Shown here piece by piece: positions 3,455 to 17,972 of a stretch of DNA of 54,645 nucleotides. The stretch comes from a virus. How positions within the stretch are numbered: the first letter of the stretch is position 1; every line of letters starts with the position of its first letter. The position numbers and the translations under genes were made by a program. The notes under the pieces were generated by a model. That model had not been told where the DNA came from and did no database searches. It saw only the letters and a list, made by a program, of their open reading frames with translations. The DNA lies in the IMG/VR virus record IMGVR_UViG_3300048833_000212, positions 1-54,645 of that record; one strand, written 5' to 3'.

Positions 3455-4195
3455 ATGCAAGTCTCTCTCATCGACTACACCGGAATGGGATCGCCCAACC
3501 CGGCTCGCCACGCCGCCAATGTCCTGGTCTTCACGAAGAGCACGCGGCTGACGATGTCGCCTGGCCTCTTCGCAGACATCGAAGGATGGGGCGAGGATCG
3601 CATTGCTGCGGAACTCCGCTACATGGCCGACACCATCCCTTCCTCCTGGGAGTTCGTCCACTACTCCTTCATCATCACCGGCGTGACGCGCGCATTCACG
3701 CACCAGTTCGTGCGGACGCGCACCGCCTCCTTCGCGCAGCAGACGATGCGTGTGCTGGATGTGAGCGAGGGGAAGGGATGGGAATACGGCACTGGGCCGT
3801 CCATCCTGGAGGATGACGACACGAAGCGCATCTATGACGATGCCATGAACGGGATCGCCTGGGCCTATCGCTCGCTGCAGGCGAGGGACGCTGCGACGGA
3901 GGATGCGCGCGGCATCCTGCCGACCAACATCCTGACCAACATCGCAGTGTCGATGAACCTTCGGACCTTCGTGGAGACGGTGCGGAAGCGCACCAGCCCG
4001 CGCGTCCAGGGAGAGTATCGCGATGTGCTGAAGGCCATGCGCGAGGCAGTGCTGGCCGTCCACCCGTGGGCGGAGGTCTTCCTGAACCGTGGACCGGACG
4101 AAGCCGCACGCGAACTCTATGCAGCCATCGGCACGCTCCCGAAGGAGCAGGCCATGAAGATGGCCAAGCTGCTCGACAAGGTGTATGCGCCATGA
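3455..4195 (+). CDS. thyX: flavin-dependent thymidylate synthase ThyX
   Basis: A 246-residue protein that methylates dUMP to dTMP using FAD and methylene-tetrahydrofolate. The signature region is RTRTASFAQQTMR at residues 87-99, corresponding to the family motif RHRX7S. A second conserved patch, LPTNILTNIAVSMNLRTF, carries the Asn-Leu-Arg dUMP-binding segment. Two motif positions differ: the His of RHR is Thr88 and the final Ser is Thr97. The ATG at 3455 follows GAAGGAAC. An ATGA overlap links it to the phosphatase gene. Family assignment is firm from motif order and length. Confidence 0.93.
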   Translation: MQVSLIDYTGMGSPNPARHAANVLVFTKSTRLTMSPGLFADIEGWGEDRIAAELRYMADTIPSSWEFVHYSFIITGVTRAFTHQFVRTRTASFAQQTMRVLDVSEGKGWEYGTGPSILEDDDTKRIYDDAMNGIAWAYRSLQARDAATEDARGILPTNILTNIAVSMNLRTFVETVRKRTSPRVQGEYRDVLKAMREAVLAVHPWAEVFLNRGPDEAARELYAAIGTLPKEQAMKMAKLLDKVYAP

Positions 4196-4668
4196 GCGAC
4201 CTGCCGGCGCCGCGCGATGTGATCGTGGTGGACATGGACGGGACGGTGGCCGACTGTGCACACCGCATCCATCTCGCCCAGGACAAGGACTGGGAAGGCT
4301 TCCATGAACTGGCGAAGGAAGACAAGCCGCATGAAGATGTGCTGGCCTTCCTCCGCACGCTCCGTGAACCGGAGGCATTCGCCTTCTTCACCTTCGTCAT
4401 CTGCACAGGCCGCAACGAAGCCTGGCGCGGTGCGACGCGCGAGTGGCTGATGGCGCATGATGTTCCCTTCGATGTCATCCTGATGCGACCGGATGGCGAC
4501 TACAGCCGCGACGGGGAACTGAAGGTGCGGCTGCTCACAGAACACTTCGGCTCGCTGGAGCGAGCGAAGGAGCGCGTGCTCATGATCCTGGAGGATCGTG
4601 ACACTGCCATCGAAGGCCTGCGTGATGCAGGCTTCCCGGTCTGGCAGGTGCGGCCATCTGGATACTGA
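4192..4668 (+). CDS. polynucleotide 3'-phosphatase domain protein (HAD superfamily, PNKP-type)
   Basis: A 158-residue stand-alone phosphatase domain. The HAD motif DMDGTVAD lies near residues 14-21 and CTGRNEAWR forms motif II. A later block, RDGELKVRLL followed by MILEDRDTAIEGLR and a Val-Trp-Gln-Val end, matches the 3'-phosphatase half of the T4 polynucleotide kinase family. No kinase domain is present. In that family the enzyme removes 3'-phosphates and can open 2',3'-cyclic phosphates. Such ends are exactly what the hammerhead ribozymes on the other strand would create, but a functional link is only inference. Confidence 0.85.
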   Translation: MSDLPAPRDVIVVDMDGTVADCAHRIHLAQDKDWEGFHELAKEDKPHEDVLAFLRTLREPEAFAFFTFVICTGRNEAWRGATREWLMAHDVPFDVILMRPDGDYSRDGELKVRLLTEHFGSLERAKERVLMILEDRDTAIEGLRDAGFPVWQVRPSGY

Positions 4669-5490: not shown

Positions 5491-5750
5491 TGGACCGGCT
5501 CAAGATCGAAGAAGAGGCGCTGGCGCGCCTCTCCCTTCGCGTCTATCGCCAGGAGTTGGGCGACAAGGATGCAGACAGCCAGGTCGCCAAGGATGGCGAC
5601 AATGGAGAGAAGCAGGCGCGCCGCGCGATGGCCTATGGGCCACTGATGCGGTCGATGATCGAAGCGATCCTGCGCGAAGGTGGAACCGTTCCCGGCGCAT
5701 CGCTGGTGGACCCTCCGAAGCCGCAGGGGAAGAAGGGGAAGAAGAAGTGA
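5490..5750 (+). CDS. small basic hypothetical protein
   Basis: An 86-residue protein with an N-terminal helix rich in Glu/Arg and a Lys/Gly tail (PKPQGKKGKKK) suggesting nucleic acid contact. It is coupled by TGATG to the mazG gene and by GTGA to the following gene. There is no known domain. Confidence 0.65.
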   Translation: MDRLKIEEEALARLSLRVYRQELGDKDADSQVAKDGDNGEKQARRAMAYGPLMRSMIEAILREGGTVPGASLVDPPKPQGKKGKKK

Positions 5751-6019
5751 GCGGCACCAACTTCAACTCTCCTGTCGCGGCGCCGGGGGAGACGGAAGGG
5801 ATGAGTGATGACGAGTTCCTTCACTACTGCCTCGCTCATTCCGAAAGCCCGCGCTGCGGCTTCACTCCGGAGCAGGTGATTCGTCTCATGCTGCTTGCTG
5901 GGATGAAGGAGAGTGCGAGCATGGTGAGCCGCGATCCTCCGCGCGTGCTGGAGTGCGATCCGAAGACAATCCAGGATATGGTCCTGGATGCCCGACTAAA
6001 GGAAGGAAAGAACCCATGA
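5747..6019 (+). CDS. hypothetical protein
   Basis: A 90-residue protein. The GTG at 5747 overlaps the previous stop (GTGA). An ATG at 5801 is an alternative start. A CGGCGCCG palindrome (5778-5785) lies in the first codons and encodes part of VAAPGET. The core is acidic and helical (SDDEFLHYCLAH, FTPEQVIRLMLLAGM). Function is unknown. Confidence 0.65.
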   Translation: MSGTNFNSPVAAPGETEGMSDDEFLHYCLAHSESPRCGFTPEQVIRLMLLAGMKESASMVSRDPPRVLECDPKTIQDMVLDARLKEGKNP

Positions 6020-6459
6020 GCCACCCGAACCTCCCGATGCCGCGCTACAAGCATGGCGACATCGTCTGGACCTATCACATCAACTCCACGAAGGCACTCC
6101 ACGAGTGCCCGGATTGCCTCGGCACGAAGAAGTGGGAAGCGACCTCGCCTGCCGGGGAGAAGCACACCGTCTCCTGCCCACGCTGTGAGTCGATGTCCTA
6201 CCTGGACCGCTCCATCCCTCCCCTCACCTACACGAAGAGCGTGGTGGAGGTCCGGAGGCTGACTGTCGGCTCCATCCAGGTGGACACGAAGGAGCGCAAT
6301 GGTGGGCCGCAGATTTCCTACATGGCTCATGAGACCGGCATCGGCTCCGGCAGCATCTGGGCAGAAGATCGCCTGTTTGCTACTGCTGAGGCTGCGGAGG
6401 TCGCTGGCCAGGGCGCAGCGATGGATCTTCCAGGATTTCATCGAGACGCTTTCCAATGA
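6016..6459 (+). CDS. zinc-ribbon-like hypothetical protein, possibly frameshifted at its 3' end
   Basis: A 147-residue reading frame with two CxxC pairs (ECPDCLG and SCPRCES, residues about 33-58) that could bind zinc. It overlaps the previous gene (ATGA). The end of this frame (after AEAAEVAGQ) loses coding character. The +1-shifted frame then continues with a plausible helical sequence (RWIFQDFIETLSNEEARQ) that has no good start of its own. The two frames may be one gene of about 240 residues interrupted by a frameshift or sequence error near 6405-6425. Confidence 0.65.
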   Translation: MSHPNLPMPRYKHGDIVWTYHINSTKALHECPDCLGTKKWEATSPAGEKHTVSCPRCESMSYLDRSIPPLTYTKSVVEVRRLTVGSIQVDTKERNGGPQISYMAHETGIGSGSIWAEDRLFATAEAAEVAGQGAAMDLPGFHRDAFQ

Positions 6460-6733
6460 GGAAGCGCGGCAGGGCGAAGAACTTGACAGCGTCGATGCAG
6501 TCGCAGAAGCTGCAGATGCGGTCCTGGCGCAGGCGAAGCGGATGGTGGTGCGCGAGCCGGGGGAACTGATGGATGAGATGATGGAGGTCATCTCTCTGCT
6601 GATGAAGCCGGTGATGCCTCCGGACGATCTGGATGAGGCAGTGATGCTCATTCTCGAAACTGCGAAGACTGCTTCGCTGAAGGCAGCGAAGGTCATGGAA
6701 CGTCTGCGGCCGCTGATGGAGAAGACGCCATGA
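6299..6733 (+). CDS. acidic helical protein or 3' part of the frameshifted upstream gene
   Basis: The frame is open from ATG 6299, but coding character only appears from about 6420. The likely protein is acidic and helical (NEEARQGEELDSVDAVAEAADAV) and ends in LRPLMEKTP. The part upstream of 6420 simply overlaps the preceding gene in another frame. ATG 6542 is the only later standard start, giving 63 residues. Either a short gene starts there or the region is the continuation of the gene at 6016. The stop overlaps the next ATG. Confidence 0.5.
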   Translation: MVGRRFPTWLMRPASAPAASGQKIACLLLLRLRRSLARAQRWIFQDFIETLSNEEARQGEELDSVDAVAEAADAVLAQAKRMVVREPGELMDEMMEVISLLMKPVMPPDDLDEAVMLILETAKTASLKAAKVMERLRPLMEKTP

Positions 6734-6867
6734 CCTTCATCTGGAACCTTCTCATCATCGGAGGCTTCGCTGGCGCGATGGTGTCGGTGATGCAGGATCG
6801 CACATCGCTTGCGATGCTCTTCTGCACCATCGTCCTCTTCGCTGCGGTGGTGGGGCGACCTCGGTGA
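6730..6867 (+). CDS. small membrane protein, two transmembrane segments
   Basis: A 45-residue protein. ATG 6730 overlaps the previous stop (ATGA) and its own stop overlaps the next GTG (GTGA). Two hydrophobic stretches (FIWNLLIIGGFAGAMVSVM and SLAMLFCTIVLFAAVVG) are separated by QDRT, giving a helical hairpin. It lies far from the endolysin; a holin-like or other inner-membrane role cannot be decided. Confidence 0.6.
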   Translation: MTFIWNLLIIGGFAGAMVSVMQDRTSLAMLFCTIVLFAAVVGRPR

Positions 6868-7046
6868 GAGACTACTCGATGCTGATGGAGGATGGCTCTT
6901 CTGTGAAGGTCTCAGACCTCCCCACGGAGGCGATCCTGGATTGCATCGATGGCGGCATTGAAGTGATGACAGGCGATACGAAGGAGGCTGTCCTGGAACG
7001 TCTCCGCCTGGAACTCTTCATCAGAGAGATGGGATTGAAGGAATGA
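6864..7046 (+). CDS. small hypothetical protein
   Basis: A 60-residue acidic protein starting with GTG at 6864, coupled on both sides by 4-base overlaps. The segment VSDLPTEAILDCIDGGIEVM has a helix-rich look. Function is unknown. Confidence 0.65.
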   Translation: MRDYSMLMEDGSSVKVSDLPTEAILDCIDGGIEVMTGDTKEAVLERLRLELFIREMGLKE

Positions 7047-7540
7047 CCGAAGAAGATGCCGACCGGCTCCGGAAGCTGCTGGCCATGCTCGCTTCCCCTC
7101 ATGACGGGGAGGTTCTGGCTGCGGTGTCCCGGCTGAAGGCGACGCTGGAGCGGATGGGCCTCCGCCCGGAAGACCTCGTGCAGCCTCCAGGGATGGGTGC
7201 CCGCGCCTCCCCGGCGCCGGGGAGGTCCACTCGCCCATCCCCTCCCCCGGAGGCGCCTAGGCGCCCACCGGAGCCCAGCGAGGATGTAGAGGACCGGCTG
7301 GGGGAGGAAGTGCCGGTGGAACCGGCTCATGCCTTCGCAGCAGTCATCCTCTCGTATCGCACTCGGCTGCCACCGGCTGGGGTGCGGTTCCTCAATGACC
7401 TCGTGATGAACCGTCAGCGGAAGGTGAGCGTGAAGCAGGAAGCCTTCCTGCGCTCGCTGGCGTCCCAGACGATCCGAGATGTGAAGCGAGCCGGCATGGG
7501 CGACGCTCGCGCGCATGCGAACAAGGGGATGTGGTCATGA
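7043..7540 (+). CDS. DUF2786-like N-terminus with repeat-derived Pro-rich linker
   Basis: A 165-residue protein. Residues about 6-45 (RLRKLLAMLASPHDGEVLAA, later LKATLERMG) resemble the helical DUF2786 unit, also found in the minus-strand gene at 51110. A Pro/Arg linker (residues about 50-85) is encoded by DNA containing a 14-bp CGGCGCCG-centred palindrome and the 14-bp palindrome centred on CCTAGG at 7252-7265. The C-terminal helical domain (AVILSYRTRLPPAGVRFLND) follows. The linker appears to have grown from the genome's non-coding repeat elements. Confidence 0.7.
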   Translation: MTEEDADRLRKLLAMLASPHDGEVLAAVSRLKATLERMGLRPEDLVQPPGMGARASPAPGRSTRPSPPPEAPRRPPEPSEDVEDRLGEEVPVEPAHAFAAVILSYRTRLPPAGVRFLNDLVMNRQRKVSVKQEAFLRSLASQTIRDVKRAGMGDARAHANKGMWS

Positions 7541-7785
7541 ATGAGCAGCTGGTCCTGCCCTTCGCGGTGGCCGACCTCTTCCGCATCTCGCATCGACCGG
7601 GCGATGTCTTCGTGCTGACGCTGCAGGGACAGTTCAGCTGGCGAGAAGTGGAGGCGCTGAAGGCGATGTGGAAGGCTTCGCCACTGAACGATGCGCCGCT
7701 CATCATCCTCCAGGAGGGGATGAAACTGGAATCAATTCGGCGGGTGCGCGACGATGACCTGCCTGGAGAGAGTGACTGGACATGA
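7537..7785 (+). CDS. hypothetical protein
   Basis: An 82-residue protein; ATG 7537 overlaps the previous stop. The segment RPGDVFVLTLQGQFSWREVE then LIILQEGMKLESI suggests an alpha/beta fold of the kind that binds a partner. No family is recognised. Confidence 0.65.
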   Translation: MNEQLVLPFAVADLFRISHRPGDVFVLTLQGQFSWREVEALKAMWKASPLNDAPLIILQEGMKLESIRRVRDDDLPGESDWT

Positions 7786-8318
7786 AGCGCACGCTGGTCT
7801 TCGACACAGAGACGACATCTCTGCTCCCCATCTCCATCGCCCATGAGGATGCGCACCCTCGCATCATCGAGTTCTATGGCGCCATCGTGGATGAGCGCGG
7901 GGCGATCCTCCGTGAGCTGGAGTTCCTGGCGCACCCAGGCGCTCCCATCTCGGATGAGATCAGGAAGATCACCGGCATCAATGATGAGATGGTGGCTGGC
8001 CTTCCGCCCTTCGCTGCCCACATCGATGAGGTGGACAGCCTCCTGTGCGCTGCTGACTCGGTCGTGGCGCACAACCTGTCCTATGACTTCTCCGTGCTGA
8101 GTGTGGAGTTCGCACGCGAAGGTCGGAAGCCTTCGTGGCCGCTCATCCGCTTCTGCACAGTGGAGCAGACGATCCACCTGAAGGGCTTCCGCCTCTCGCT
8201 GGCGAACCTCCATGAATACCTCTTCGGTGAAGCCTTCACCGGAGCGCATCGGGCGAAGCGTGATGTCACGGCGCTCATCCGATGCTTCAACAAGCTGCGT
8301 GATGAGGACATGCTATGA
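7782..8318 (+). CDS. DnaQ-like 3'-5' exonuclease (DEDDh), likely proofreading subunit
   Basis: A 178-residue protein. Exo I motif VFDTETTSL at residues 6-14 holds the catalytic Asp and Glu, Exo II is HNLSYDFSVLSVEF, and Exo III is HRAKRDVTALIRC with the catalytic His and Asp. The length matches the epsilon subunit of DNA polymerase III. It lies upstream of the two DnaE pieces, which lack an exonuclease domain, so it probably proofreads in trans. Confidence 0.92.
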   Translation: MKRTLVFDTETTSLLPISIAHEDAHPRIIEFYGAIVDERGAILRELEFLAHPGAPISDEIRKITGINDEMVAGLPPFAAHIDEVDSLLCAADSVVAHNLSYDFSVLSVEFAREGRKPSWPLIRFCTVEQTIHLKGFRLSLANLHEYLFGEAFTGAHRAKRDVTALIRCFNKLRDEDML

Positions 8319-8557
8319 GCGATCCTGGTCCAGGCCACAACCTCCCTCCGAACGTCTCGGTGGTCCTGAAGGCGGAGACAGCAGCGGCTCTGCTCGGCCA
8401 GACGGATGCGGCGCTCACCATGATGCTCGGCTTCCTGGGAGACGTGCGACTTTCACGGGAGAATGCGGAGCAGCTGGTGGCGCGCATCGAGGTCCAGAAG
8501 GAACTCCGTGCGGCGCTCATGGAAGCAGGAGTGAAGAATGAGTCCGATGGACAGTGA
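8315..8557 (+). CDS. small hypothetical protein
   Basis: An 80-residue protein with ATGA overlap to the exonuclease gene. It begins MSDPGPGHNLPP and is otherwise helical (LSRENAEQLVARIEVQKELR). The N-terminal GHN motif followed by helices is seen in other phage unknowns. No function is assigned. Confidence 0.65.
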   Translation: MSDPGPGHNLPPNVSVVLKAETAAALLGQTDAALTMMLGFLGDVRLSRENAEQLVARIEVQKELRAALMEAGVKNESDGQ

Positions 8558-8810: not shown

Positions 8811-9037
8811 GCGGTCAGAGCCGAGACGCAGCAGAGCGATCTGCGCATGTCCCTGGTAAGGATGCGCGCCGGTTCACTCCATGCTGCGTCTGTGGACGCG
8901 ACGTGAATATCAACAGCCAAGGAAAGGACACCTGCTCTTATGCTGCACGCGTCGGGCCACCGCTCCTTCAGGTGTGCTCCGAAGCCTGCGCCTCCCAGCC
9001 TCCATTCTTGCGTCATCATGACGCAAGCAAACAGTGA
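8807..9037 (+). CDS. small Cys-rich putative zinc-binding protein
   Basis: A 76-residue protein with CCVCGRDVN and two later Cys (DTCSY, VCSEAC), a plausible single zinc finger. It overlaps the previous stop. Its 3' end contains a 10-bp-arm palindrome (see 9007-9027). Confidence 0.6.
   Translation: MSGQSRDAAERSAHVPGKDARRFTPCCVCGRDVNINSQGKDTCSYAARVGPPLLQVCSEACASQPPFLRHHDASKQ
9007..9027. promoter_or_regulatory. 21-bp near-perfect palindrome, operator-like
   Basis: CTTGCGTCAT and ATGACGCAAG flank one central C, a perfect inverted repeat with 10-bp arms. It lies in the last codons of one gene, about 20 bases before the start of the next. Such a site could bind a dimeric regulator, or form an RNA hairpin before the ribosome-binding site of 9048. 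Confidence 0.5.
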
Positions 9038-9047
9038 GAGAAGAACG

Positions 9048-9305
9048 ATGAGCAACGACGAAGACATCATGGGCCAGTATGGCGAGGATCGCATCACGGG
9101 CTTCCGTGGGCGCATCACAGGCATTGTGCGCTACATCAGCGGCTGCACCCAGGTGCTGCTGACTCCGAAGGTCGGCACCGATGGGAAGATGCCGGAAGGC
9201 CAGTTCATCGACATCCAGCGCATCAAGGTCGATGAGACGGTGGTGCGCATCATGCTCGACAACGCGCCCACGCCCGGCTTCGATCAGCTGCCGAAGGCGC
9301 GCTGA
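9048..9305 (+). CDS. conserved small phage protein
   Basis: An 85-residue protein. The start at 9048 follows GAGAGAAG. The segment DRITGFRGRITGIVRYISG, with Cys-Thr-Gln and a later GQFIDIQRI, matches a small beta-barrel-like protein common in proteobacterial phages. Its function is unknown to me. It immediately precedes the polymerase gene (shared TGATG). Confidence 0.75.
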   Translation: MSNDEDIMGQYGEDRITGFRGRITGIVRYISGCTQVLLTPKVGTDGKMPEGQFIDIQRIKVDETVVRIMLDNAPTPGFDQLPKAR

Positions 9306-10414
9306 TGTCTGACCTCCGCACCAAGAAGCCATGGGTGTCGCCTCGGCTGCGCACTGGCTATTCCTTCCGGACGGCAGCGGGGATGCTGCCTGAAATCTTC
9401 ACGCGCTTGAAGGAGATTGGGGCGGAGGTCGCGCCAATCACAGACACAGCATCGACCTTCGGCTATGCAAAATGGGCGAAGGGAGCGAAGGATGCCGGGC
9501 TGCGGCCGATCTTCGGCGTGGAACTCTCCGTCACCCCTGCACCGAATGCGAAGAAGCCGGTGAGCAGCGCATGGACGTTCCTCGCCCACGACAGCATCCA
9601 GCCAATCAACAGGCTGGTGAACCTCGCCACATCGCAGTTCCGCTATGAGCCGCTGCTCACCTATGAGCAGGCAATGACAGTGGAGGGAGTGACGAAGATC
9701 GCAGGGCACGCCGCGCTGCTCAGCGAGATGTCGCCAGCACCCGACCTCTTCATGGGCCTTTCGCCTTCGTCGCCACGCGGTCAGGTTGTGGCAGCGATGA
9801 AGGCAGGCTTCCGTCTCATCGCCATCGGTGACAACCGCTTCCCGGCGCCGGGGGATTTGGCGCTGTATGAACTCGCTGCCGGGCGGAACTCCGGCACGCA
9901 GACTTATCCCCAGCACATCCTCAGCGAGGAAGAGTGGCGCGAGGCGATGGCCATGCTGCGGCTCACGGATGATGTGCTGGACGGCGCGCTGGTGGAGGCG
10001 AGCATCGCGCTGGAGAGGTCCACTGCGTCTCTCCGGAAGGCGACGATGGTGAAGCCTGCCCGACCGAAGACGTTGCGCGAGATGGCGGAGGATGGAGCGA
10101 GGCGCCGGGGGATAGACCTCGCTGACCCGGTCTATGCAGCGCGGCTGGAAAGGGAACTCTCCATCATCGAAGCGAAGCGGCTGGAGGATTACTTTTTCCT
10201 GATGGCCGACATCATGCAGTTCAGCCGGGCGCACATGCTGTGTGGACCGGCGCGCGGCTCCGCTGCCGGCTCGCTTCTCTCGTTCCTGCTCGACATCACG
10301 ACCATCGACCCCATCCCTGGTGGCCTACTGTTCGAGCGTTTCCTGGACGTGACGCGTGGTGGCTGGTTCTTCAAGACGGATTGGCTCAAGAATGTGATGG
10401 AGACGGAATCATGA
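9305..10414 (+). CDS. dnaE: DNA polymerase III alpha subunit, N-terminal piece (PHP plus start of palm)
   Basis: A 369-residue protein. Residues about 15-75 form a PHP-type domain (ITDTASTFGYAKWAKGAKDA, then LRPIFGVELS). Its metal ligands are degraded: the usual HxH is RTGYS and the TDH motif is TDT, so it is probably not catalytic. Near the end is the polymerase motif GPARGSAAGSLLSFLLDITT followed by LLFERFLD. The protein stops where the catalytic Asp motif would normally follow; that motif is in the separate gene at 11122. No intein signature is present at the end. Confidence 0.9.
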   Translation: MSDLRTKKPWVSPRLRTGYSFRTAAGMLPEIFTRLKEIGAEVAPITDTASTFGYAKWAKGAKDAGLRPIFGVELSVTPAPNAKKPVSSAWTFLAHDSIQPINRLVNLATSQFRYEPLLTYEQAMTVEGVTKIAGHAALLSEMSPAPDLFMGLSPSSPRGQVVAAMKAGFRLIAIGDNRFPAPGDLALYELAAGRNSGTQTYPQHILSEEEWREAMAMLRLTDDVLDGALVEASIALERSTASLRKATMVKPARPKTLREMAEDGARRRGIDLADPVYAARLERELSIIEAKRLEDYFFLMADIMQFSRAHMLCGPARGSAAGSLLSFLLDITTIDPIPGGLLFERFLDVTRGGWFFKTDWLKNVMETES

Positions 10415-10593
10415 AGGTGAAGGAGTGCCGGACCTGCATCCATCGTCGCGAGGGGATGCTGGCTGTGGACCCATACGAGTGCCGCCGCTATCCTCCAGCA
10501 GTTGTCACATGGGATCATACTCGCAACCAGACGGTATGGCCGAAGGTCAAGCCAAACGACTGGTGCGGCGAATGGAAGGAAGACAAGTCATGA
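10411..10593 (+). CDS. small Cys-rich protein inserted between the polymerase pieces
   Basis: A 60-residue protein with CRTCIHRR, ECRRYPP and WCGEWK, four Cys arranged for one zinc site. This is a widespread small phage protein type. It overlaps the end of the DnaE N-piece gene (ATGA) and the next gene. Confidence 0.7.
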   Translation: MKVKECRTCIHRREGMLAVDPYECRRYPPAVVTWDHTRNQTVWPKVKPNDWCGEWKEDKS

Positions 10594-10811
10594 GCGAGAC
10601 AAAGGCCCATCTACAGAATGTGATGAAGGCACTGGAAGACATCATCCCAGGCTGCGCCATCGTCCTGCTGGTTGCACCCTTCAATGCGCCGGAAGGAGCG
10701 AGGGTGAACTACATCTCCAACGGGAAGCGCGAGACGATGCTGGTGCTGCTGAAGGAGTTTGTCGCACGCGCCGAAGGTCGCGCCCACGACGCTCCGGAGA
10801 GGAAGCAATGA
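10590..10811 (+). CDS. small hypothetical protein inserted between the polymerase pieces
   Basis: A 73-residue protein (MSETKAHLQNVMKALEDI...). It has a hydrophobic strand, GCAIVLLVAPFN, then ARVNYISNGKRETMLVLLKE. It looks like a small alpha/beta protein that occurs in many phages as an unknown. ATGA overlaps are present on both sides. Confidence 0.65.
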   Translation: MSETKAHLQNVMKALEDIIPGCAIVLLVAPFNAPEGARVNYISNGKRETMLVLLKEFVARAEGRAHDAPERKQ

Positions 10812-11125
10812 GCGAGACGAAGAAAAGGCGACAGGTCTTCTGCCGCGTCAAGCACACGAAGGCAGGGACGGACATTGCCCCATGCGATGCACTCTCATCA
10901 GTCCTGATTTATTCGTATGGCGGCGCAGGCGCTAGGCTCGCCACAATGTTCCCATTCACAGATGGCATCCCGCAAGAGGGAAGGAACAAGCGCCTTGTAA
11001 TTGCGCCGACGAAGAAGCAAGGCAAAGGAGTGGTGGCGAACTTCTGCCCGTATTGTGGCGAGCCTCTGACGGAGGGTGGTCGCGGTTTCGTTGCAGAGCA
11101 GGCGAAGCGAAGGTGCAAGGCATGA
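10808..11125 (+). CDS. hypothetical protein with a zinc-ribbon-like C-terminus
   Basis: A 105-residue protein starting MSETKKRRQVFCRV and ending with NFCPYCGEPLTEGGRGF, a CPxCG knuckle. The first five residues repeat those of the preceding gene product. It overlaps the following polymerase gene by four bases. Confidence 0.7.
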   Translation: MSETKKRRQVFCRVKHTKAGTDIAPCDALSSVLIYSYGGAGARLATMFPFTDGIPQEGRNKRLVIAPTKKQGKGVVANFCPYCGEPLTEGGRGFVAEQAKRRCKA

Positions 11126-13200
11126 ACCCCATCGACGCGATCCGCGCCGCACTGATCCCCTCGCGCGTTCAGCAGGTGGGCCAGCAGGCGATTGACGATG
11201 AGATACACGCGCTCATCGCTGCCTTCGACTTCACGAAGTGGATGGTGGGGAGGCTCGATGCCGGAGCGCGCCTGTCCTCCGCTCATGGCTCTTCGCTGCT
11301 CTACTGCGTGGGCCTGGCCGACAATCCCCCGGCGCCGGGGGAGAAGAAGCATATGTGGTTTGACACGACGCTGCCGGACATCGACGTGGACCTGCAGGAC
11401 GATCTTCGCCACCTGACCTTCGCCCACATCGAAGCGACCTATGGGAAGGAGCGGGTGGCGCGCCTCGGAACGGTCGGCACCTTCAAGGCGCGCAGCGCGC
11501 TCCAGGAGGTCGGCATGGCACTCAAAATTCCGAAGTGGGAAACAGATGCTGTGGCTGACCAGATGATCAAGCGATCCTCCGGTGACGCTCGCGCGCAGCT
11601 GACGATCATCGACACGCTGGAGAATATGCCAGCTGGGAAGGACATGCTGAGGGACCATCCCGAAGCGATCATCGTGACGCGCATCGAAGGCCACCCGAAG
11701 AACGCAGGCCAACACGCGGCAGGCGTCGTCATCTCCAATGATGCCATTGATGAGATTGTCGCGGTGGATGCTCGCACAGGTGCTGCTATGTGCGACAAGG
11801 ATGATGCGGAGGGAGCGTATGGCCTCCTGAAGGCGGACATCCTCGGCCTCACGCAGCTGAGTGTCTTCGCGGAGACGCTGGAGCGTGCCGGCCTCCCGCG
11901 CGACTATCTGGACCACGTGCCGTATGACGACAAACTCGCCTTCGTTGTCATCAATGAGCGACGCTACAGCGGTGTGTTCCAGTTTGAGGGAGGCGCGCTG
12001 CAGAGCGTCGCACGCGCTGTGCACATCGACTCATTCAATGACTTCGTCGCGATGACGGCGCTGGCGCGTCCAGGGCCGCTCGCCAGTGGCTCCACCAACG
12101 AGTGGATCAACCGGCGCACAGGGAAGGATCGCGTCACCTATCCGCACGAGATGCTGCAGCCCTACATGGAAGAGACGCTGGGCGTCATCATCTACCAGGA
12201 GCAAATCCTCACCATCGGTCGCGCCGTTGGCGACCTCGACTGGCCTGAGTTGACTGCTCTTCGCAAGGCGATGAGCAAGAGCCTCGGCAAGGAATACTTC
12301 GACAGGTTCGGCAATCCATGGAAGAGCGCCGCGATACGGAAGGGGATGCCGACGCAGGTGGCGGAAGACGTGTGGACTGCGATGTGCGCATATGGATCGT
12401 ATGGCTTCAACAAGTCGCATGCCTACTCGTATGGACTCATCAGCTACTGGTGCGCTCACCTGAAGGCGCGCTATCCGCTGGAGTTCCTGGCGTCCACTCT
12501 CTCGCACACGAGCGACCCAGCGCAGCAGGTGGAACTCCTGCGCGACCTCCTGGCCGAAGGTTATGACTACATCCCCATTGATCCGTCTGTCTCCACCCAC
12601 CGCTGGGAGGTTGCGGAGAGGGAGGGGAAGAAGGTGGTGGTTGGACCTTTGACGGGTGTGCGTGGTATCGGCAGTGTGGCCGTCCAGAAAATCCTGAGCG
12701 CACGCGGCGCCGGGGAGCCGATGCCTGCGCGCTATGCGAAGCTGCTGGAGGCTCCGAAGACTGACATTGACTCGCTGTTCCCGATACGGGATGCGATCCG
12801 GCGCTGCACTCCGGACCTCCGTGAGAAGAACATCCACACGCCTCCCACGATGATCAGCGTGCTGGAGCACATGCCCGACAACAGCGAGGTTCTCATCATT
12901 GGCGTCCTGCTGAAGATCAACCAGCGTGACGAGAATGAGGAAATCAAGATCGCACGGCGCGGTGGGAAGCGCGTGACGGATGGCTTCCTGCTCTCGCTGA
13001 ATTTGAACATCAAGGATGACACCGGCCAGTTCTTCGCGAAGGTTGGCCGCTTCGATTTCGATGTGCTGGGGAAGCGCATCCTGGACCATGGCCGCGCAGG
13101 GAAGGCCATCTGGGCATTGAAGGGAAGGCTCTTCAAGCGCGGCTCCTTCTCAATGCTGACAGTGCGCAACGCGCGCCTCATCGGTGACCTCGATGAGTAG
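11122..13200 (+). CDS. dnaE: DNA polymerase III alpha subunit, C-terminal piece (catalytic palm, fingers, OB region)
   Basis: A 692-residue protein carrying the catalytic residues. PDIDVDLQDD (residues about 90-99) matches the PDxDxD motif, and LLKADILGLTQLSVF holds the third Asp. GTVGTFKARSALQEVG and NKSHAYSYGLISY are family blocks. About 80 N-terminal residues (from MNPIDAIRAAL) have no counterpart in standard DnaE and may form a docking segment for the N-piece. The C-terminus is OB-like. The two pieces plus the DnaQ-type exonuclease would form the replicase. Confidence 0.92.
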   Translation: MNPIDAIRAALIPSRVQQVGQQAIDDEIHALIAAFDFTKWMVGRLDAGARLSSAHGSSLLYCVGLADNPPAPGEKKHMWFDTTLPDIDVDLQDDLRHLTFAHIEATYGKERVARLGTVGTFKARSALQEVGMALKIPKWETDAVADQMIKRSSGDARAQLTIIDTLENMPAGKDMLRDHPEAIIVTRIEGHPKNAGQHAAGVVISNDAIDEIVAVDARTGAAMCDKDDAEGAYGLLKADILGLTQLSVFAETLERAGLPRDYLDHVPYDDKLAFVVINERRYSGVFQFEGGALQSVARAVHIDSFNDFVAMTALARPGPLASGSTNEWINRRTGKDRVTYPHEMLQPYMEETLGVIIYQEQILTIGRAVGDLDWPELTALRKAMSKSLGKEYFDRFGNPWKSAAIRKGMPTQVAEDVWTAMCAYGSYGFNKSHAYSYGLISYWCAHLKARYPLEFLASTLSHTSDPAQQVELLRDLLAEGYDYIPIDPSVSTHRWEVAEREGKKVVVGPLTGVRGIGSVAVQKILSARGAGEPMPARYAKLLEAPKTDIDSLFPIRDAIRRCTPDLREKNIHTPPTMISVLEHMPDNSEVLIIGVLLKINQRDENEEIKIARRGGKRVTDGFLLSLNLNIKDDTGQFFAKVGRFDFDVLGKRILDHGRAGKAIWALKGRLFKRGSFSMLTVRNARLIGDLDE

Positions 13201-13324
13201 CCTTCCCTTCGCGTCTGAGGAAGCGGAGGATAGGAGGCTGTGGGCGGGCAATCCTGCCAAGATGGCCGCTCATCACCATATCCCCTGCGACCAAACGCCC
13301 ACAGCACCTGGAACGAGAGAATGA
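13193..13324 (+). CDS. very small hypothetical protein
   Basis: A 43-residue frame, ATG 13193 to TGA 13322-13324, overlapping both the polymerase stop (by 8 bases) and the next ATG (ATGA). Beginning MSSLPFASEEAEDRRLWAG, it has no motif. The regular overlap pattern is the main support. Confidence 0.5.
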   Translation: MSSLPFASEEAEDRRLWAGNPAKMAAHHHIPCDQTPTAPGTRE

Positions 13325-13671
13325 CCGAACATCGATGTGCCGGAAGAGTTTTCACGCCCGGCTCCTTCCGTGACTCCGCCTGCTCCCGGAAGGGGAAGCA
13401 CTTCCAGAAGGAACGCTGGTGGTGCGGCACTCACCTCCCATCGAAGGAGGAAGAGCGAAGGGCAGAGCGGAACCGAATTGGCGATCTGAAGAGCGCCGTG
13501 ATGCGCGCAGGCTGGGACCGGGAGAAGATCGCAGGCGACCTCATCAAGGCCGCAATCGCCGCAACGAAGCAGCGTGGCTCGTGGACGCGCGTGGAAGAAC
13601 TCTCGGCGGAACTCGTGGCAGCAGAAGAGAAGATTGCCGCAGCGCAACGCAAGCTGGAGGAAGAACGGTGA
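13321..13671 (+). CDS. Cys-containing N-terminus plus coiled-coil hypothetical protein
   Basis: A 116-residue protein. Residues 1-40 hold HRC, SACSRKGKH and WWCGTHLPS, a likely zinc site. The rest is a charged helix ending in LVAAEEKIAAAQRKLEEER. It overlaps neighbours on both sides. Function is unknown. Confidence 0.65.
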   Translation: MTEHRCAGRVFTPGSFRDSACSRKGKHFQKERWWCGTHLPSKEEERRAERNRIGDLKSAVMRAGWDREKIAGDLIKAAIAATKQRGSWTRVEELSAELVAAEEKIAAAQRKLEEER

Positions 13672-13889: not shown

Positions 13890-14119
13890 GCATCATCGAA
13901 GCCAAGCAGATCGCAGACGTTGACGACATCAACAAGGATGATGTTCCAGAAATCGCAGACATCGAGATGCTGCGCGAGATGGTCTATGCGGCGCAGGCTC
14001 ACGAGCGTGAAGGGACATTCGTCGCCATCACTGTCGATGCGCTGCGTGACCTTCTCTCCCGTCAGCTGTCGTCGCCCACTGCTGCGAAGAACTTCGTGCG
14101 CGTCCAGAGGTCGCAATGA
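13886..14119 (+). CDS. small acidic hypothetical protein
   Basis: A 77-residue protein, MSIIEAKQIADVDDINKD..., ATG 13886 overlapping the previous stop. It is highly acidic in its first half and helical in its second (VDALRDLLSRQL). It directly precedes the primase and may be an accessory factor. Confidence 0.6.
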   Translation: MSIIEAKQIADVDDINKDDVPEIADIEMLREMVYAAQAHEREGTFVAITVDALRDLLSRQLSSPTAAKNFVRVQRSQ

Positions 14120-15324
14120 TCAGCAACGAAGAGTTCCTGCAAACCGTATTCGGTGACGGGTGGCTCGCTGCACATCTCGCGTCCTTCGTGGATGATCCCA
14201 CGAGCGAGACGATGGACAGGAAGAAGTGGGGTGGCGGCGCCGCGAAGGAGAAGCTGCTGTGGGCCATCCCGACACGCAACAACTACTTCACAGTGTCCCT
14301 CTTCGCGAGGGACGATGAAGGGATCGCACGGCGCCGCAAGGCGCTGTTCCTGTCTATGCATCTCGTGGTGGTGGATGACGTGGACGAAGGGAAGGTGAAG
14401 AGCGAGACAGCGCGCCGTCTCCTGGGGGAGCCTTCCTATCGTCTCGAAACCTCCCCCGGCAACGAGCAGTGGGGATACCTCTTCGATGAGCCGCTGCGCG
14501 ACCGCTTCGCGGGTGAACTGCTCGTGGAAGCGATGGTGGCCCAGGGACTGACGACCACCGGCACCGATCCCGGCATGAAGGGTGTCACGCGATACGTGCG
14601 CCTCCCGGTTGGCACGAACATGAAGGCCAAGTATGGCGCCACCGGCTTCCGGACAGTGCTCCACGAATGGGCTCCGGAGCGCCGCTACAGCCCTGCGATC
14701 CTCGCCCAGGCCTTCGGCCTGCCCGACCTCGCGGAAGCCGCCCGCGTGGCCTGCAGGCGCGCGGAGATGGAACGGGAGGGGCTGGAGGGGAAGGGAGAGG
14801 ATGCGCTGCTGGCCGCACTCACCTTCCTCGGAAAGGTGAAGGACACCCGGCGCCGGGGAGATGCGGTGGACATCACCTGCCCGTTCATCGACACGCACAC
14901 GGGACGGGTGGACACAGGGACTGCCTACATGATCGGTGGCGGCGGCATCTCCTGCCATCATGGCCACTGCGTCGGGAGGTCGCGTGGAGAGTATGTTCAG
15001 AAGATCAAAGATGAACTCAGCGGGATTGTCGATGAGCGAGCAGCGGAGGCAGCTGCTGTAATTTACAGCATCAGCGCGCTGGCAGACCTCCGCCGCTCCC
15101 TTCGGCTCACTGCCTTCGGCCTGATGCGGCGCGGGTTGAAGGCGGAGGATCGCATCCGCGATATGGCCAACGAAGAGATTGATGATGCGAGTGTGGCAGA
15201 GGAAGAGATGTGGGCAGCCATCGCATGGGCGCGGGAGAAGGTGCAGGAGATTGAGACGAAGGAGAAGGTGGTGGAGGCTCCGATAAAGACAGTTAAATTC
15301 GATGTGCCGGAGGAATGGCTGTGA
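14116..15324 (+). CDS. archaeo-eukaryotic-type primase (RepB/AEP-like)
   Basis: A 402-residue protein. HLVVVDDVDEGKV at residues about 76-88 carries the DxD metal motif. It is followed by GEPSYRLETSPGNEQWGYLF, a hallmark of RepB-type primases of the AEP fold. A second acidic/His region (ITCPFIDTHTGR, ISCHHGHCVG) is compatible with a CHC2-like zinc knuckle. It overlaps the helicase gene. It would lay primers for the DnaE replicase. Confidence 0.85.
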   Translation: MISNEEFLQTVFGDGWLAAHLASFVDDPTSETMDRKKWGGGAAKEKLLWAIPTRNNYFTVSLFARDDEGIARRRKALFLSMHLVVVDDVDEGKVKSETARRLLGEPSYRLETSPGNEQWGYLFDEPLRDRFAGELLVEAMVAQGLTTTGTDPGMKGVTRYVRLPVGTNMKAKYGATGFRTVLHEWAPERRYSPAILAQAFGLPDLAEAARVACRRAEMEREGLEGKGEDALLAALTFLGKVKDTRRRGDAVDITCPFIDTHTGRVDTGTAYMIGGGGISCHHGHCVGRSRGEYVQKIKDELSGIVDERAAEAAAVIYSISALADLRRSLRLTAFGLMRRGLKAEDRIRDMANEEIDDASVAEEEMWAAIAWAREKVQEIETKEKVVEAPIKTVKFDVPEEWL

Positions 15325-17972
15325 GTATCGTTCATTGGTTGGCGAGCCGGGACGGGAGCGAAAGCCGCCCCACATCGCTGCTGAGCGGGATGGGCATTCG
15401 CGTCTCCCCGCTGTATGAGAGCGAGTATCACCGCAACTGGCTGAAGGGCCAAGGCGCAGAGGCGCGTGGCATCCTGACGGCCATCGTGCGGGAGGAAGCG
15501 AAGAATGGCACGTGGAAGGACACGAAGGCGATCCACTTCAATGTGGACGGGACGCCCAGCCACATCGTCTCCGCCAGCGGCGCGGTGGCCAACATCGAAG
15601 TGCTGCCGACTGAACGCAATGCCTTCCTCGCTGCCTTCGCTGCGCATCCCTTCGGGGAGAAGGTCGGTGCGGAGGTTCCGGACAGGCTGAGCAATAAGCA
15701 GATTGCCCAGCTGATGGACCTTCCGCCCTTTGCACGGGAGCATGGCGAACTCTTCTTCTTCCGCAATGAGAATGGAGCAGTCACCTTCGTTCACCAGCGG
15801 ATCGAAGTGAACAGTGCGAAGGTCTATGTGGCCTGGCACCTTCGGGAGGTCAGCGGCTCCCTCACGTGGTTCGCCAGTGAACCGGAAGGTGCGCTGCCAA
15901 TCTACGGTGCCCACCTGCTCCCCGGCGCCGCAGGGAAGGTGATCTACATCCATGAGAGCGCGCGTGCGGCGGAGGGAGCCGCTAGGATCGCGCGGGAGGC
16001 TGTTCTAGCGGCGGAGGCTCCGGAGGGACCGGAAGAGAAGCGGAGCCGCCTAGGCGCCCATCCCTGGGGCGAGGAACTAGCGGGCGCAGTCCATGTCGGG
16101 TGGCTCAGCGGCGGGATGAACGTGGAGCGGACCTCCTGGGCCGGCATCAACTCAGCCGCGCCATCGGATGTCGTCATCGTCGCGGACAATGATGAGTCTG
16201 GCCTCGCAAGCATCCCCAAGATCGCGAAGAGCCTGTTCATGACGACCAGTGCGGTGAAGTTCAACTCTTCCTTCCCGGTTGGCTTCGACATGGGTGACCC
16301 ATATCCCGACAGCGCGCGACGGTGGAAGAACGGGAAGCTGAAGCCGCTCCACCTTCAGCGACTGGAACTCATGAAGGTCTTCGCGACATGGGCGACGGAA
16401 GCCTACACGGTGCCGACCGCGAACGGCACAAAGGTGAAGTATCGCGTGCGACGCTCCTTCGCTCGCGCGGTGGGCTATGTGAAGAACATCGACCGCTTCG
16501 TGGTGCGGTCTGCGCCGACACCTGCTCTTGGCTCTTTGACCTTTGACAAAGCGTTCCGCTCCTTCTCCGATGTCGCACAGCTGAGCAATGTCGTTGTGGA
16601 GGATGCTGAGACGATCTTCGACAGCCTGGCATACGTGCCCGGCTCACCGACCGGCGCGATGATGCGTGACTCCATGATGCTCCTGAACACGTATCGGCCA
16701 CCGCTGATCCCCCGGCGCCGGGGAGATGTGAGGCTGTTCGATGAGTTCATGCGCTACCTCGTGCCAGGCGAGGAAGACCGCCTCAACCTCCTGCGGATCA
16801 TCGCGACGATTGTGGCGCATCCGGAGCGCCGCATTCGCTACTCTGTGCTGCTCATCTCCACGCAGGAAGGTGTGGGGAAGAACACGCTCACGGATGCGAT
16901 CCTCCAGCCGCTCGTGGGCCCGCACAACGTCTCGGTCGTGGGCGAGAGCGGCATCACCGGCTCATTCAACGGGTGGGCAGCCAATCGTCGCGTCATCATC
17001 GTCCCGGAAATCTATGAGGGTCACTCGTTTACCACAGCCAACAAGCTGAAGTCAATGGTGACGGATGACCGGATCATGGTGAATGAGAAGAACCAGCCCG
17101 CATATGAGGTGGACAACAACATCACCTTCTTCGCCTGCTCCAACTCGCTGCAGGCTCTGAAGATTGCAGAGGCTGACCGCCGCTGGTTCCTTCCGCAGCT
17201 GTCGGAGGTCGCGTGGCCGCGCGAGCGGTTCGCTGAACTCCACGATGCTCTCTCGCATGGCGACCTTCTGCCAGCGATCATGGACTGGGCACACGAGTAT
17301 GGTGACTATGTCCAGGATGGAGCCACGGCGCCGCGAAGCACCTTCAAGGATGAGTTCATTGAAGGCTCGATCAGCGGCGTGCGCAACGAAACGGATGCGC
17401 TCACCGCGCTCATGAAGAGCCTGCGTGCGCCTCCGGACGGATACAAGAAGCGGCTGCTCACCATGATCAGCAAGCTGCCGTCTGACGGGAAGATGAGTGT
17501 GGAAGGGAGGATGGCCAACAATGAGGCCAAGATGTTCCTCCGTGACGTCATCGATGGGCCGCGTGCGGCGTCGCTCGCGATCCCTGTCCCGCTCGCAGTG
17601 ACGAGTAAGGAGGCGCTGGCTCATGCGACGAAGGCAGTGACCAATCGTGAGCGCATCTTCGACCGTGAGCTGGATGTGCGGAAGAGGATGCTGAAGGAGG
17701 GGCTGGTGGACGGTGGCCGGGTGATGATCGGCAACCGCATGGGGAGGATCGTCTGCAACCGCGCGTGCGAAGACCTCGTGCGGCAGTTCGTGCGCTGGTA
17801 TGAAGAGAAGATGGACGGTGGTGGGCAGGTTCTTCAGGACCATATCCTGGCCAATGCGCTCTATCGCGCGGCGCTGGTTTTCCCCTCTGAACTTCTTCCA
17901 GAAGAGATGGGCGCGGATGGTGGCGGCATTGTTCGCGAGACGATGCACGACGACTGGGAGAGGGATGAATGA
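15321..17972 (+). CDS. TOPRIM plus superfamily 3 (D5/DUF5906-like) replicative helicase
   Basis: An 883-residue protein. A TOPRIM-like segment, VVIVADNDESGLASIPKIAK, lies near residues 285-304. The helicase core follows with Walker A STQEGVGKNTLTDAI near residue 513 and later NRRVIIVPEIYEG and ITFFACSNSLQALK (motif C and sensor). The GTG at 15321 is preferred because GGAGG lies 7 bases upstream and it gives a GTGA overlap; ATG 15315 would be only two bases from GGAGG. Three CGGCGCCG palindromes lie within it. With the primase it forms the initiation module next to the putative origin. Confidence 0.88.
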   Translation: MSIVHWLASRDGSESRPTSLLSGMGIRVSPLYESEYHRNWLKGQGAEARGILTAIVREEAKNGTWKDTKAIHFNVDGTPSHIVSASGAVANIEVLPTERNAFLAAFAAHPFGEKVGAEVPDRLSNKQIAQLMDLPPFAREHGELFFFRNENGAVTFVHQRIEVNSAKVYVAWHLREVSGSLTWFASEPEGALPIYGAHLLPGAAGKVIYIHESARAAEGAARIAREAVLAAEAPEGPEEKRSRLGAHPWGEELAGAVHVGWLSGGMNVERTSWAGINSAAPSDVVIVADNDESGLASIPKIAKSLFMTTSAVKFNSSFPVGFDMGDPYPDSARRWKNGKLKPLHLQRLELMKVFATWATEAYTVPTANGTKVKYRVRRSFARAVGYVKNIDRFVVRSAPTPALGSLTFDKAFRSFSDVAQLSNVVVEDAETIFDSLAYVPGSPTGAMMRDSMMLLNTYRPPLIPRRRGDVRLFDEFMRYLVPGEEDRLNLLRIIATIVAHPERRIRYSVLLISTQEGVGKNTLTDAILQPLVGPHNVSVVGESGITGSFNGWAANRRVIIVPEIYEGHSFTTANKLKSMVTDDRIMVNEKNQPAYEVDNNITFFACSNSLQALKIAEADRRWFLPQLSEVAWPRERFAELHDALSHGDLLPAIMDWAHEYGDYVQDGATAPRSTFKDEFIEGSISGVRNETDALTALMKSLRAPPDGYKKRLLTMISKLPSDGKMSVEGRMANNEAKMFLRDVIDGPRAASLAIPVPLAVTSKEALAHATKAVTNRERIFDRELDVRKRMLKEGLVDGGRVMIGNRMGRIVCNRACEDLVRQFVRWYEEKMDGGGQVLQDHILANALYRAALVFPSELLPEEMGADGGGIVRETMHDDWERDE

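Follow-up and report, generated by a model that had tools for sequence, protein, structure and literature searches.

Background

Mobile endonucleases usually spare essential genes by residing in introns or inteins. Here we analyze the gene of the DNA polymerase III (Pol III) alpha subunit, dnaE, in a stretch of viral DNA of 54,645 b (IMG/VR record IMGVR_UViG_3300048833_000212, taken at its full length and called the window below). This IMG/VR contig derives from a tailed phage and encodes terminase, major head, portal and tape-measure proteins. In this phage Pol III alpha is encoded by two genes, an N-piece and a C-piece; several phage lineages seem to have their replicative polymerase interrupted at one residue beside the active site and to rescue it through conserved ends.

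Cases in which a homing endonuclease gene (HEG) fragments a phage gene that stays functional have been described for Aeh1 nrdA, T4 topoisomerase and gene 43 of Aeromonas phage 25 (PMC2988022). In Aeromonas phage Aeh1, the HEG mobE fragments NrdA into NrdA-a and NrdA-b and the enzyme is reported to be fully functional (Friedrich 2007 in PMC2988022). The split polymerases are like this system because an essential phage gene is divided into two genes, in association with a free-standing HEG and without splicing. They are unlike it in the enzyme concerned, in the HEG class (HNH in Aeh1, PD-(D/E)XK in the split-polymerase relatives), in the recurrence of the same junction with homologous tails in seven polymerase lineages, in the resemblance of the C-piece extension to a segment of the host gene and in the frequent loss of the HEG. 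The new C- and N-terminal tails of Aeh1 NrdA are reportedly required for assembly, a result attributed to Crona 2011.

Two genes likewise encode the replicative polymerase of the T4-related Aeromonas phages 25 and 44RR, where gp43A/43B (PolB) is split (Petrov 2010, reviewed in PMC2988022). The proteins 43A and 43B co-purify with polymerase activity, and a seg-type HEG is present in phage 25, although according to the review its causation of the gene 43 split is unclear (PMC2988022). These are B-family polymerases, unlike the Pol III alpha of the window, which belongs to the C-family.

Pol III alpha itself is encoded by two genes in the cyanobacterial split DnaE (Ssp/Npu DnaE intein), but the window has no intein and its break point lies elsewhere; residues 48-430 of the C-piece align inside the cyanobacterial N-part (NCBIfam PRK09532), at 365-777 of 876. 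Dassa 2009 is said to have described fractured genes that bear split inteins and whose two halves flank an HEG. Two of our loci, L205 and L210, show this arrangement at the DnaE site that is broken in the window, whereas the window family is devoid of intein halves and its join would therefore be non-covalent.

No report of a split phage Pol III alpha was found in our literature search. The principle, HEG fragmentation with function kept, is known; the enzyme is new, and the break recurs at a single residue, with tails that are homologous to one another. If this holds, homing elements would have in fragmentation plus docking a recurrent way of surviving in essential genes, and the one ribonucleotide reductase would not be an isolated oddity. 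A split Pol III could be designed around the natural break point and the docking parts, and the split explains why annotation with a single model labels such phages as truncated.

Pol III alpha of the window is divided over two genes

Two open reading frames (ORFs), which lie in different frames and are separated by three others, encode Pol III alpha:

9305..10414, + strand: Pol III alpha N-piece, 369 aa, with PHP domain, palm start and intact GS motif (PF02811; PF07733 positions 2-98)
10244..10273, + strand: GS motif GPARGSAAGS, residues 314-323 of the N-piece (alignment)
10411..10593, + strand: intervening ORF 1, 60 aa, 4 Cys (weak phrog_15838 match)
10590..10811, + strand: intervening ORF 2, 73 aa (phrog_35296, 1e-9)
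10808..11125, + strand: intervening ORF 3, 105 aa, 5 Cys (weak zinc-ribbon match)
11122..13200, + strand: Pol III alpha C-piece, 692 aa, with extension, palm with catalytic Asp, fingers and C-terminal region (PF07733 positions 99-260; PF17657)
11377..11385, + strand: catalytic D86 and D88 (LPDIDVD) of the C-piece (invariant, 54/54 aligned rows)
11836..11838, + strand: catalytic D239, the third Asp, of the C-piece (invariant, 54/54 aligned rows)

The initial annotation, made from the sequence alone, had already recognised a Pol III alpha split into two pieces, and the Pfam domains and two clean ORFs bear it out. It had placed PHP and GSAAGS in the N-piece and all three catalytic Asp in the C-piece. 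The PHP domain is matched at a Pfam E of 4e-8 (by eye, it is devoid of the usual metal-binding His pattern), residues G314, R317, G318, S319, G322 and S323 of the GS motif are invariant in 46 aligned rows, and D86, D88 and D239 are so in 54. The Pfam catalytic domain PF07733 is cut exactly, the N-piece running to profile position 98 and the C-piece starting from 99. All parts of a C-family polymerase (PHP, GS-motif palm, three Asp and fingers) are present and divided over two genes; both in the window and in six other lineages they do not lie on a single polypeptide. The N-piece is 52% identical to an unsplit relative (L006).

The three small genes between the pieces, which had been called Cys-rich or of no known kind, answer to that description, with four Cys in the first and five in the third. 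ATGA overlaps are found at every junction from 10411 to 11125, as in a normal phage operon, and relatives of intervening ORF 2 adjoin unsplit dnaE in L093, L095 and L131.

The same split recurs and its gap is variably occupied

Two profile scans of viral contigs for relatives gave over 130 loci. Sorting them by reading frame yielded one further split case, L068, and a DNA pattern of the junction matched split genes only, namely L146, L148, L155, L156 (= L154, L158) and L157. The same split, which the initial annotation had proposed to seek in relatives, is thus found in six further distinct lineages of virus contigs, at the same residue, and in each the contiguous gene of the relatives is cut into two separately started ORFs. 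The nearest unsplit relative first found, L006, has a single ORF of 1218 aa, which contains a full intein at another position. A scan of the genome collection gave a single distant match, and among the phage-collection matches listed there was no sequenced isolate with the split. In phage G001 the C-piece (14.5-17.3 kb) lies ahead of the N-piece (23.5-24.5 kb); the pieces being 6 kb apart and in swapped order, their products must act in trans.

In L068 and L156 the gap contains a homologous ORF of 263-294 aa, 50% identical, with helix-turn-helix, zinc-finger-like and PD-(D/E)XK nuclease features; relatives of this nuclease are common in phages. A homologous endonuclease ORF lies between the pieces in L157 (L165, reverse strand), where it carries an in-frame TGA stop, as expected for a decaying homing gene. 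L148 and L155 have no gene between the pieces. Judged from the sequences, these gap states (intact HEG-like ORF, stop-bearing ORF, none) would correspond to stages of a homing cycle.

At the split residue of the window, two distant phage DnaEs (L205:2323-6164 and L210:1404-5281) carry canonical split inteins with a PD-(D/E)XK gene between them, and these nucleases are relatives of the L068/L156 gap nuclease. The intein junctions of L205 read INPLR followed by CLDP... and ...VLTHN followed by SEFPDID. L210 is broken a second time, more upstream, by an intein half, and a further ORF occupies this second gap.

Both broken ends carry conserved new sequences

New sequences, present in none of the unsplit homologues, are found at both broken ends:

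10358..10411, + strand: N-piece tail GGWFFKTDWLKNVMETES, residues 352-369, with GG linker, aromatic motif and short helix (sequence and AlphaFold)
11122..11370, + strand: C-piece extension, 83 aa, ahead of LPDIDVD (leave-one-out hidden Markov model, HMM, 37.7 bits; 0/5000 shuffles)
11263..11337, + strand: GS-like stretch of the extension, GARLSSAHGSSLLYCVGLADNPPAP (compared with the corresponding segment of unsplit enzymes)

In the window, the N-piece continues after FERFLDVTR with GGWFFKTDWLKNVMETES and then stops. All seven split members end in the same way, with FERF-x-D-x-x-R-GG-aromatic and a short tail, and the RGG signature is absent at the split site from all 109 unsplit polymerases. 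The codons of the tail vary among the split members while RGG-aromatic stays; therefore, it is the protein level that is conserved.

The extra 80 or so residues noted earlier at the start of the C-piece are indeed present, although not unexplained, as they belong to an extension family of split polymerases. An extension is found in 7/7 split members (70-83 aa, about 40 aa in L146), and together these form one sequence family with leave-one-out HMM scores of 16-65 bits and 0/5000 shuffles for six of them; the shortest scores 4.9 bits (4/5000 shuffles).

The extension is also remotely like the GS-bearing palm segment, without the RGS residues of the motif and without the FERF helix. The tblastn matches of the N-piece and C-piece on unsplit phage polymerases overlap by about 65 residues, with C-piece residues 16-83 aligning to the segment that ends the N-piece. 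When phmmer is run against Pol III alpha of Taq and E. coli, the alignment starts at C-piece residue 34 and keeps the register of the GS segment. In a direct shuffle test of extension against GS segment, 2/20,000 shuffles were as good, and combining the seven extensions gives a shuffle p of 1e-8. That each extension is its own recent copy of the N-piece end is weakened by the scores, mutual matches reaching up to 65 bits versus at most about 6 bits with the GS-segment profile.

Predicted structures and assembly

AlphaFold models both pieces with a high mean predicted local distance difference test score (pLDDT; 88.9 for the N-piece and 89 for the C-piece). In the N-piece, residues 347-357 are disordered and are followed by a helix (358-368) with a pLDDT of about 61, a model compatible with a flexible tail that orders upon binding. 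The C-piece extension is predicted to be helical, with pLDDT 72-92 over residues 1-70. A fold search with the C-piece gave Pol III alpha and PolC as best matches (Z 16-26), and residues 1-77 were hardly covered. Since the N-piece keeps every GS residue, it would complete the active site. The initial proposal of an association via the extra residues agrees with the comparative data, because the extension is present in all seven split members and the GG signature in 0/109 unsplit polymerases. Association, polymerase activity, HEG mobility and the role of each tail are what we infer from these data.

History of the split

Trees of 70 polymerases, seven split rows included, were built from the full protein, the N part only and the C part only. 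The seven split rows require 7 changes in each of the three trees, and starred branches force 7, 5 and 7 changes, respectively; a 32-row tree with bootstraps gave 7-7 changes. One clade for all split rows is rejected (p-AU, approximately unbiased test, 1.5e-78; cost 1079 log-likelihood units). Six of the seven split rows stand singly among unsplit rows, and the seventh is in a three-row group with an unsplit row.

By both N and C, L068 groups with the unsplit L006 (74 and 73% identity), both halves of L155 group with L098 and both halves of L146 with the myophage group. Where resolved, the two halves share the same unsplit neighbour; therefore, the junction, not the gene, is common to the split members. 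Inheritance or transfer of the whole split gene as a unit is ruled out by the trees, and the junction probably moved or recurred by homing, the rest of the gene staying put.

Alternative explanations

An assembly error or pseudogene is ruled out by the recurrence in six other lineages and by the intact frames. Unsplit relatives, which along with evidence of assembly error had been named as refuting the split, do not do so because split and unsplit forms intermingle in the tree. A frameshifted record probably accounts for Vibrio phage PVA7 (L003), whose polymerase is in three overlapping, shifted ORFs that resemble sequencing frameshifts or a decayed gene, but not for the split members. Joining of the pieces at the protein or RNA level would be a further way to a single chain. 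Trans-splicing by an unrecognised split intein, formed by the N-tail and the C extension, could be suspected, given that L205 and L210 have true split inteins plus an HEG at this site and that other sites of these polymerases often carry inteins. However, the residue following the split point is Gly in 7/7 members, never Cys, Ser, Thr or Ala, the residue preceding LPDID in the window is Thr, with no terminal Asn, and neither piece has a Pfam intein match or fits an intein profile. This makes trans-splicing very improbable and agrees with the earlier statement that no intein is present. RNA-level repair, by a self-splicing intron, frameshift or read-through, is scarcely credible: a direct overlap of the two genes in L148 and L155 would allow for it, but Rfam has no family at E <= 1 in 9000-13500, the window gap holds three intact ORFs, the tail is kept in amino acids and not in bases, and in G001 the gene order is swapped over 6 kb, at odds with a group I or II intron. 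Intein, intron and read-through are all rejected on junction residues, profile searches and gene arrangement.

Two further explanations accept the split and differ in its meaning. The C-piece alone might be a working polymerase with a stand-in palm segment, the N-piece being a separate accessory protein; the extension does occupy the sequence slot of the palm segment and is predicted to fold in the isolated C-piece, but in 7/7 cases it lacks both the FERF helix and the RGS portion of the GS motif, and every N-piece keeps an intact GS motif that a lone PHP protein would not need. We consider this quite improbable. The idea that the ancestral polymerase was already in two pieces with tails, that most lineages re-fused and that HEGs were later visitors to the gap is unlikely, though less so; homology of extensions and tails across distant lineages speaks for it, and the same caveat has been made for gene 43 of Aeromonas phage 25 (PMC2988022). 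It needs many exact re-fusions, each removing tail and extension and restoring NRxDLPD, and 6/7 split rows stand singly among unsplit rows.

A homing endonuclease as the probable cause

We find it probable that an HEG fractured dnaE and was later lost in the window lineage, and that the enzyme assembles non-covalently via its tails. This reading draws on what is apparent in the DNA and its translations: the split, its recurrence, two conserved ends and a scattered distribution, together with an HEG in three relatives, no intein or known intron, and a trans arrangement in one phage. The HEG would have invaded phage dnaE at the conserved ..FERF[IL]D..R^xDLPDID.., a site that follows the GS motif and precedes the first two catalytic Asp, and would have divided the gene into two that are translated independently. 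In the window lineage the HEG would later have been lost, three ordinary small phage genes now occupying the gap. The enzyme would be assembled non-covalently from both pieces, the N-piece providing PHP and a functional GS motif and the C-piece the catalytic Asp and fingers; the putative docking parts, the GG-aromatic N-piece tail and the helical C-piece extension, would both have been made by the event. The intein-free split of the initial annotation is retained in this interpretation, whereas the GG-aromatic tail, the homing-endonuclease context and the kinship of extension and GS segment had been overlooked.

Several points weigh against HEG fracture with non-covalent docking. The window gap holds neither an HEG nor a trace of one; L068 and L156 have one, and that of L157 is decayed. 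The extensions of L068 and L146, taken singly, are not significant against the GS segment. When the C-piece is aligned structurally with solved Pol III alpha, the alignments mostly begin at residue 78, so that a palm position of the extension is putative. As to the history, a single ancestral split with many re-fusions, or repeated junction transfer by plain recombination, may account for it instead.

More tentatively, and with somewhat less than even confidence, GG-aromatic tail, endonuclease gene and C extension could be one mobile cassette spreading between distant phage polymerases. Such a homing element would break the polymerase gene and bring its own non-covalent docking parts, so that the host enzyme keeps working: a counterpart of the split intein without splicing.

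Replication cluster and other interruptions of related polymerases

The gene order of the window is DnaQ-like exonuclease, N-piece, three small ORFs, C-piece and primase-like genes. The neighbours belonging to the replication cluster are:

7782..8318, + strand: DnaQ-like 3'-5' exonuclease, 178 aa (Pfam RNase_T 7e-18; phrog_192 7e-35)
14116..15324, + strand: primase-like protein, 402 aa (phrog_4861 1e-12)
15315..17972, + strand: primase-helicase-like protein, 885 aa, DUF5906 (PF19263 1e-20; phrog_1156 1e-29)

The DnaQ-like gene may supply proofreading for the split Pol III alpha. A counterpart of the primase-helicase-like gene is found downstream of dnaE also in L006 and L068.

Full inteins with HNH-type inserts occur at other sites of the polymerase in L006, L068, L066, L102-L109, L119-L123 and L159; they lie before QHAAG and around FNKSH, also within already split C-pieces. 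In L143 a weak PHP-like ORF (3736-4500) lies about 1.2 kb upstream of a PHP-less polymerase ORF (5698-8343), an arrangement that is possibly a different, more N-terminal split.

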